In this document: positions 17,805 through 45,093 of the stretch, in pieces | Layout: every line of letters starts with the position of its first letter | Position numbering within the stretch: position 1 is the first letter of the stretch | Assembly (NCBI GenBank): GCA_951801825.1 | Contig: CATOOF010000002.1 | Location: 164,441 to 228,440 of the forward strand | Length of the DNA: 64,000 bases | Direction of reading: 5' to 3' | Source: an uncultured Alphaproteobacteria bacterium | Lineage (GTDB): Bacteria; Pseudomonadota; Alphaproteobacteria; Rs-D84 | Position numbers and translations under genes: made by a program | The notes under the pieces: model-generated | Database searches by the model: none | The model's input: only the letters and a program-made list of their open reading frames with translations | Told to the model about the DNA's origin: nothing

Positions 17805-18142
17805 ACGGTGCGCAGATGCACGATAAGCCGGATTCTGTCCTGCCACGGGCCCAGTTTTTTCACAAACCACGCCCGGGTAGTGAGCATAATTAATCTGCAT
17901 ACCATGTTACCATGATATGTCGAGCCTTCTACCCGCCCCCAATCCTGGGACTGGTCACAGGGGGCCTATTTGAAGTTGCTGCGCATAGAGATTGCCCGTT
18001 TCACTCGAACTAAATCGTTTCGTCACTGTTGCTCTGATCGTCAGGTTTCCCCGCCCGGTCATTAGCCGGTATGCCGTCCCATGCAGTCCGGACTTTCCTC
18101 CAACCTTGTTAAGGTCAGCTATGCTCTGTGCATCTTACGCGG
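17805..18142 (-). ncRNA. rnpB: RNase P RNA (class A)
   Basis: Minus strand contains aggttggaggaaagtccggactgcatgggacgg near 5' end and gacagaatccggcttatcg near 3' end; P1 pairing agatgcac/gtgcatct; followed by a terminator. Confidence 0.95.
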
Positions 18143-27005: not shown

Positions 27006-27042
27006 GCTATAAAAAATCCCCCGGTTGGGGGATTTTTTATTT
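27006..27042. terminator. Terminator between secA and the convergent small gene
   Basis: aaaaaatcccccggttgggggatttttt hairpin. Confidence 0.85.
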
Positions 27043-27252
27043 TCGTGATTTATAACTTAGCATTGAAAATGCTGCATTCATCAGGCGCGACAGTGCAGGT
27101 TCGGGAAATATGTCACGGCCTATTTCGCAGCGCTTGTACTGCTTTGCGGGCATTTTAAGCAGGGCCGCGGCCTCTGGGGTGGTGATTTTTAGGAACTTGC
27201 GTGTTAGGCGCATTACATCACCGTAATATCTGGGGTCAACTAATAATTTCAT
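27037..27252 (-). CDS. Small HTH-like protein (Cro/CI-like, tentative)
   Basis: MKLLVDPRYYGDVMRLTRKFLKITTPEAAALLKMPAKQYKRCEIGRDIFPEPALSRLMNAAF resembles an XRE helix-turn-helix; RBS ggagg. Confidence 0.55.
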   Translation of the reverse strand: MKLLVDPRYYGDVMRLTRKFLKITTPEAAALLKMPAKQYKRCEIGRDIFPEPALSRLMNAAFSMLSYKSRK

Positions 27253-27277
27253 TTTATCCTCCGTATTTTTGGGTTAA

Positions 27278-27430
27278 ACAAAAATCCGCCGTGATTAAGG
27301 GCGGTTGGAGGTTAAAGACTACTATAACAATAGTGCTGCTTATTTATGTATATCACAGCCCTCCAACCGGTTGTGGAGTTTAAATGTTATAAGAGGTCTT
27401 TACACCTCACACTGGGTATCACCCAATGCG
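27278..27430 (-). ncRNA. Structured leader RNA or sRNA ending in a terminator
   Basis: Promoter at 27464-27437; long imperfect duplex 27308-27329/27385-27408; alternative perfect 10-bp helix 27302-27311/27360-27369; terminator stem ccgcc/ggcgg + T-tract. Confidence 0.6.
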
Positions 27431-27436
27431 ATATGG

Positions 27437-27464
27437 ATTATATCATAAACTGTTTGATTTGCAA
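27437..27464 (-). promoter_or_regulatory. Sigma-70 type promoter for the structured RNA
   Basis: TTGCAA - 16 nt - TATAAT on the minus strand. Confidence 0.6.
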
Positions 27465-27546
27465 ACAAAATACTGTCAACCAAAAAATCGTATTTTTCGT
27501 AAATATATGGTTGCCCTGCCGGGGCATTTTTTGCTATTTTTGCGGC

Positions 27547-45019: not shown

Positions 45020-45093
45020 TGGTGCGGGCGAAGGGAATCGAACCCTCGTCTTCAGCTTGGGAAGCTGACGTGCTACCATTATACCACGCCCGC
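45020..45093 (-). tRNA. tRNA-Gly(CCC), CCA encoded
   Basis: Reverse complement gcgggcgtggtataatggtagcacgtcagcttcccaagctgaagacgagggttcgattcccttcgcccgcacca; anticodon loop ttcccaa. Confidence 0.95.

Follow-up and report, generated by a model that had tools for sequence, protein, structure and literature searches.

A multi-copy leader RNA upstream of small HTH genes in Alphaproteobacteria: a candidate two-domain switch remotely related to sRNA-Xcc1

The minus strand of the window, the 64,000-nucleotide stretch of alphaproteobacterial DNA analyzed here, encodes a folded leader of about 150 nt (27280-27429) that has its own promoter, ends in a terminator-like hairpin and is followed by a 71-aa XRE-type HTH gene. 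Its mutually exclusive helices, the massive compensatory change found in them and a layout kept across dozens of copies make it very likely, as judged by sequence comparison, that this is a regulatory leader. We think it somewhat more probable than not that the leader is a switch RNA of two domains, remotely homologous to sRNA-Xcc1 and transcribed from its own promoter, that would act in cis on read-through into the next gene. What the sequences show is the anatomy and its conservation, compensatory change in each of the helices described below, the multi-copy spread and the homology with sRNA-Xcc1. No description of the multi-copy leader was found in Rfam or in the literature searched, most subscription journals lying outside that scope.

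Leader anatomy and compensatory change

A sequence-only reading of this DNA had proposed a structured, probably bistable leader with a terminator 5′ of a small HTH gene. Every element that it named between 27430 and 27252 on the minus strand is present where it was placed, and the proposal is largely upheld by the exclusive helices, their compensatory changes and the conserved layout. The elements are as follows (percentages are cells paired; fractions are pairs with two-sided changes unless stated otherwise):

27437..27465, minus strand: sigma-70-like promoter, TTTGCA-17-TATAAT (alternatively TTGCAA-16), extended -10; transcription predicted to begin near 27430
27409..27429, minus strand: P0, 5′ hairpin of 8 bp (27422-27429 with 27409-27416); 95.2%, 8/8
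27393..27408, minus strand: H1, hairpin GAGGU/ACCUC; 5/5, outside the aligning model
27396-27402 with 27313-27319, minus strand: P1b, long-range helix of 7 bp; 97.5%, 7/7
27385-27391 with 27323-27329, minus strand: P2, long-range helix of 7 bp; 91.1%, 7/7
27360..27378, minus strand: P3, hairpin of strand A (27369-27378) and strand B (27360-27368); 93.5%, 4/5
27360-27368 (GGUUGGAGG) with 27303-27311 (CCUCCAACC), minus strand: competing helix B:C; 98.9%, 7/9 (39 diverse copies)
27335..27359, minus strand: P4, hairpin with a conserved A/U-rich internal loop; 98.8%
27319..27333, minus strand: P5, hairpin CUAU/GUAG with a 7-nt loop; UA to AU and CG exchanges, outside model R1
27280..27304, minus strand: intrinsic-terminator-like hairpin CCGCC/GGCGG with T tract; 97.6%, compensatory changes at 3/5 pairs
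27037..27252, minus strand: 71-aa XRE/Cro-C1-type HTH gene; SD GGAGG 5 nt upstream of the ATG at 27252

By itself, the promoter match is not above chance (2 found against 1.9 expected); both of its boxes align at the same place in eight close copies of the leader from the same genome. A terminator hairpin with its T tract lies between promoter and gene, as in an attenuator, and was unlisted by a simple terminator scan because its 9-nt loop exceeds the 8-nt limit of the scan. In close copies, the T tract can also pair with the A-rich stretch before the SD (window 27253-27285; TTTTTGTTT...AAAAAT here), giving a second small hairpin. The competing 10-bp helix that had been said to overlap the terminator holds up: B:C is 9 bp long in the family and 10 bp in the window copy, it covaries, and it overlaps the terminator stem by its last two bases (2-3 nt).

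The long duplex described earlier is present as pairing (GAGG/CCUC plus 7 bp, then 7 bp), while the term "rod" given to it also covers two hairpins, GAGGU/ACCUC and CUAU/GUAG, in which each loop pairs with the 3′ flank of the other; covariation favors the rod and the two-hairpin readings alike. The H1 loop is the 5′ strand of P1b, and P2 joins the 3′ flank of H1 to the P5 loop in a sequence that is different in nearly every copy. Alternative H1 stems occur in other copies, e.g., GCGAG/CUCGC in two of them (L113 and L118). The rod-like fold of about 150 nt had also been called compatible with a 6S-type RNA, the likelihood of which is now negligible, and we reject it: RF00013 gives no match even at E=10, and there are dozens of copies, mostly ahead of a gene.

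To describe the family we used a covariance model, R1, built from 23 copies and holding the rod and A:B helices without B:C. Across 105 copies, 95.4% of the cells of the R1 structure are paired, with two-sided changes at 36 of the 41 pairs and a covariation score of 0.592, compared with 0.193 for shuffles and at most 0.107 for slid alignments; as this alignment was fitted to the R1 structure, these counts lean towards it. H1 and P5 are free of that bias, and the helices outside the model (H1, P5 and B:C) are paired in 91.8% of cells, with two-sided changes at 13 of 18 pairs. Exchanges in B:C over the 39 diverse copies, which span several orders, include UA (22) to CG (16) and GC (26) to AU (12), with a small bias possible from the choice of strand B as the best complement of C. 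At the dnaE-locus ortholog in a relative, 90% identical over 3.15 kb, P1b, P2 and P4 have been swapped for other complementary pairs. The sequence-only reading had made its proposal hinge on compensatory changes in both competing helices, and such changes are present on a large scale.

The score of the core with its own 5′ domain is far above that with the domains of other copies, both in the window family (32.3 vs 17.7) and in other orders (34.8 vs 22.0; 0/2000 permutations in each case), indicating that the pairing partner is private to each copy. The P4 loop sequences, for their part, are nearly invariant across distant taxa. A separate subtype (L115, L116, L117, L123, L125 and L126) carries CUCCUG / GGUCAGGAGG / CCUCCUGACC in place of CUCCAACC / GGUUGGAGG / CCUCCAACC, so that the three competing strands are all altered together; it precedes proteins with apparent signal peptides, not HTH genes.

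Compared with dinucleotide shuffles, the terminated form (z = -5.3) and the full leader (z = -4.3) are both unusually stable, with 0/200 shuffles as stable in either case. The minimum-energy fold consists of the rod and complete terminator at the terminated length, and of B:C and a shorter terminator stem in the full leader. The two folds of the window copy differ by 3.2 kcal/mol (terminated length) and 2.3 kcal/mol (full leader), and the switch in minimum-energy fold directly supports the prediction that they are nearly equal. Over 84 copies, the rod is usually preferred to B:C, by a mean of 9 kcal/mol at the terminated length and 6 in the longer form; these are nested energies, those disfavoring B:C were computed with a penalty term, and pseudoknots, which B:C would permit, are not scored by the program. 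On these predictions, most copies would not be balanced unless pseudoknots help B:C.

Copies, distribution and downstream genes

A DNA search of the genome carrying the window returned eight full copies with 77-100% identity, which share the promoter boxes and the position of the SD and each lie directly 5′ of a different small HTH gene. With R1 (E<=0.01; its E values, like those of the model R2 below, are rough), the same 0.897-Mb genome holds 36 copies, or about 1 per 25 kb. Copies were found in 54 of 59 genomes of the genus, in 129 of 142 genomes and 15 of 20 genera of the order, and in 15 of 289 genomes sampled from the class, with E values down to 1e-23 outside the order. Scanning named genomes with a sequence pattern gave hits only in five MAGs, of which four carry the title Alphaproteobacteria (one came from horse faeces) and one the title Rickettsiales. 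A phage or plasmid origin was rejected: the leader pattern matched no viral contig, and a search with the window copy gave no match in annotated plasmids and a single 26-nt chance match in phages. The window copy lies between dnaE and secA, and the same place is occupied in the relative G023.

Riboregulators often stand in tandem. At seven places in the own genome (G000), R1 finds tandem pairs and one triple, with units about 200-240 nt apart (C2:82043-82640, C1:281652-282075, C1:472367-472727, C2:48737-49149, C2:62010-62419, C2:100474-100881 and C1:418211-418634), and every unit of these tandem leaders has its own terminator-like end. Four copies of another conserved hairpin, CCGTCTTCTCATCTCCAATCANAGAAACGG, lie in this genome outside the window (C2:61902, C2:81935, C2:280089 and C1:282148), each shortly 3′ of a leader copy with no reading frame between them; the hairpin is also present in two relatives. 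Its loop shares CUCCAA with strands A and C, and the hairpin is possibly a non-coding RNA under the control of the leader.

The copies precede many different genes, and the conserved unit is therefore the leader and not one gene. Among 95 distinct downstream proteins, the overlapping sets HTH_31, HTH_19 and HTH_3 count 44, 33 and 30 members, and the others include outer-membrane barrels, surface antigens and apparent signal-peptide proteins; more distant copies also precede secreted or surface proteins. The SD and ATG of the HTH genes follow the leader at a near-constant distance. No SD-bearing reading frame starts within 75 nt of 23 of the 122 copies, several of which are upstream members of tandem sets. 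A survey of candidate structured RNAs in human microbiomes likewise reports HTH_XRE as the domain most often encoded immediately downstream (15 candidates; PMC8040213); we compared its motifs with the leader by description.

The HTH protein of the window matches PF13560 at E=0.0024, below the family cut-off. Its AlphaFold model is a small XRE-like bundle (pLDDT 94.5), whose best PDB folds in Foldseek are XRE, HipB and C.BclI, with weak E values of about 0.01. Such proteins could conceivably set the switch themselves by binding their own leader RNA or promoter. Most close copies do precede XRE-type HTH genes (with HTH_31 in 44 of the 95 downstream proteins), the predicted fold is similar to those of XRE, HipB and controller proteins, and Aca2, an XRE-like protein, reportedly binds RNA. 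We nevertheless find autoregulation distinctly unlikely, given that the HTH proteins diverge widely while the leader core hardly varies, and that many copies are followed by surface or secreted proteins rather than immediately by an HTH gene.

Relation to sRNA-Xcc1

Infernal searches with 4227 Rfam families, 6S included, gave no family at cut-off for the leader; in the window, only an ordinary class A RNase P RNA (17808-18137, minus strand) and an ordinary tRNA-Gly(CCC) (45020-45093, minus strand) pass. Phe_leader, OrzO-P, RNAI and other chance matches were set aside, as they map to the HTH gene's ordinary terminator (27017-27032), outside the leader. The family that recurs is sRNA-Xcc1 (RF02221), found in about ten different copies and always in the same register: it scores 29.6 bits (E=0.004) on the window copy and more on relatives (L144, the best, 44.1 bits; L080, 41.0; L142, 35.7; L150, 35.0; and others). 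Every copy tested scores under the gathering cut-off of 53 bits, and the window copy is not an RF02221 member by this measure. The earlier statement that no known consensus was recognized thus needs correcting: the core is distant kin of sRNA-Xcc1, at scores under the Rfam cut-off.

In the converse direction, a model trained on alphaproteobacterial cores only (R2: B:C, P4 and P5) detects 9 of 30 RF02221 loci in register, with rough E values down to 1e-11; nearly all of these loci belong to other classes of Pseudomonadota. When 299 genomes of the phylum were scanned blind with R2, six matches lay outside the class, five of them at RF02221 sites. R1, which lacks B:C, found none of the sRNA-Xcc1 loci on which it was run. 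The order of core elements is also the same, namely the closing helix B:C, P4 with an AAUA/GAAUA internal loop, P5, a single strand and C; judged by its closing helix, P4, P5 and single strand, the leader has the core structure of sRNA-Xcc1. We conclude from these comparisons that the leader core and sRNA-Xcc1 are homologous, if remotely.

The RF02221 model spans an 87-nt core and omits the 5′ partner domain. The sRNA-Xcc1 loci likewise carry a 5′ pairing domain: at 30 loci above cut-off, pairing with the own upstream region scores 35.6, compared with 25.9 when the regions are swapped (joint bipartite test, 0/5000 permutations). Many of these loci show the same two pairing sequences again around the SD of the next gene (UGCAAA-GGAG-ACACAAG in L174, CCGAAAA-GGAG-CAAACAG in L175), and this match too is locus-specific (30.3 vs 22.9; 0/5000 permutations). 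A second copy of the 5′ domain flanking the SD was noted in L174, L175, L163, L171, L172, L176 and L186. Since both the 5′ domain and the SD-site repeats are specific, the sRNA-Xcc1 core can pair with either the 5′ domain or the ribosome-binding site, and an SD flanked by a copy of the 5′ domain suggests that translation is controlled by the neighboring RNA. These sequence patterns further suggest that sRNA-Xcc1 has so far been seen only in part.

The two branches differ in what surrounds the core. In the window family, a terminator stands behind C and, unlike in sRNA-Xcc1 loci, the pairing site is not repeated at the ribosome-binding site (19.4 vs 19.3 for own and other copies); such a repeat is also absent in other Alphaproteobacteria (20.8 vs 20.6). 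The window family precedes XRE and surface-protein genes, whereas sRNA-Xcc1 precedes SymE/Bro/KilA-like genes, the products of which resemble SymE, Bro-N/KilA-N and Rha proteins by eye.

sRNA-Xcc1 has been detected as an 88-nt RNA by RACE and as a band of about 100 nt in Northern blots (PMC2996969), and the title of a 2011 paper, as cited in PMC12444791, names it trans-acting. The leader could likewise be mainly a trans-acting sRNA, a terminated RNA of about 150 nt with the P5 loop and following single strand as its seed. The 5′ domain would then be a built-in decoy and the downstream gene would be reached by leaky read-through only, a corollary that we hold to be just as doubtful. We regard a trans-acting sRNA as possible but doubtful. 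It is consistent with the presence of an own promoter and terminator, with these descriptions of sRNA-Xcc1 and with the match of the seed in true sRNA-Xcc1 loci to the ribosome-binding site of the next gene, but the seeds of the window family match their own 5′ domain with no excess at their own ribosome-binding site, and the near-constant spacing of the HTH-gene SD and ATG behind the leader fits control in cis.

In Xanthomonas, sRNA-Xcc1 lies upstream of symE in integron cassettes (2025 paper, PMC12444791), and five homologues stand in a row in Xylella (PMC12189769). This setting, together with the many dispersed copies, raises the idea of a mobile repeat, e.g., an integron attC-like site acting through its fold in DNA recombination. 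We consider it highly improbable: promoter, terminator stem and downstream SD are kept, the pairs covary as in an RNA, and the copies are dispersed mostly beside different genes; the window copy found no relatives among phages, plasmids or viral contigs and itself lies at the dnaE-secA locus, not in an integron cassette.

A candidate switch and its meaning

In the cis-acting switch that we favor, the 5′ domain (H1 and its 3′ flank) would be the private pairing partner of a 3′ core in which B:C encloses P4 and P5. Two zipping contacts are envisaged, the H1 loop with the segment after P5 and the H1 flank with the P5 loop, and strand B would choose between strand A upstream and strand C downstream, A:B presumably forming first during transcription. 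In the OFF state, the 5′ domain and core would zip through P1b and P2 into the rod, with B staying on A and the end of C free, and the full terminator hairpin would stop transcription before the HTH gene. In the ON state, B would capture C, the rod and 2-3 bases of the terminator stem would be lost, and the polymerase would read on. We infer, for this scheme, an exchange between the two states inside the cell, control exerted at termination, and the assignment of ON and OFF. The antiterminator effect of B:C may be weak, given that its overlap with the terminator is only 2-3 bp.

Such a design resembles transcription attenuators and terminator-platform riboswitches in that three strands, A, B and C, compete next to a terminator-like hairpin 5′ of an SD and ATG. 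The competing helix that overlaps the terminator covaries, and in the window copy the alternative folds lie within about 3 kcal/mol. The leader differs from these systems in that it shows no leader-peptide, tRNA or ligand signature and has a private, copy-specific 5′ domain as its partner. The most likely candidate site for the action of a protein or ligand is the internal loop of P4, which is A/U-rich and conserved. A metabolite or ion riboswitch, in which this loop and the junction would bind a small molecule favoring one fold, could account for the near-invariance of the P4 loops across distant taxa, for the tandem copies and for the terminator platform; it appears rather unlikely, as the downstream genes have no common metabolic theme, no ligand is indicated, and P1b and P2 vary freely, unlike most aptamer joints. 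HTH autoregulation and ligand binding are also possible as triggers of the switch rather than as replacements for it.

With at least 36 copies of this leader in 0.9 Mb, the genome probably relies on it for a sizeable share of its regulation. The link to sRNA-Xcc1 gives that RNA a testable role, with an upstream partner and, in many loci, a copy of this partner at the ribosome-binding site of the next gene. We see about an even chance that what is known as sRNA-Xcc1 is the 3′ half of an RNA switch platform widespread in Pseudomonadota. The constant core of this platform, with a bipartite, copy-specific seed, would pair with a private 5′ domain or, alternatively, with a target downstream, namely the ribosome-binding site in the sRNA-Xcc1 branch and a terminator circuit in the alphaproteobacterial branch; in gut Alphaproteobacteria with reduced genomes, dozens of separately barcoded copies would control small HTH regulators and surface proteins. 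If true, sRNA-Xcc1, thought to act on distant targets, would be recast as a switch of the neighboring gene.
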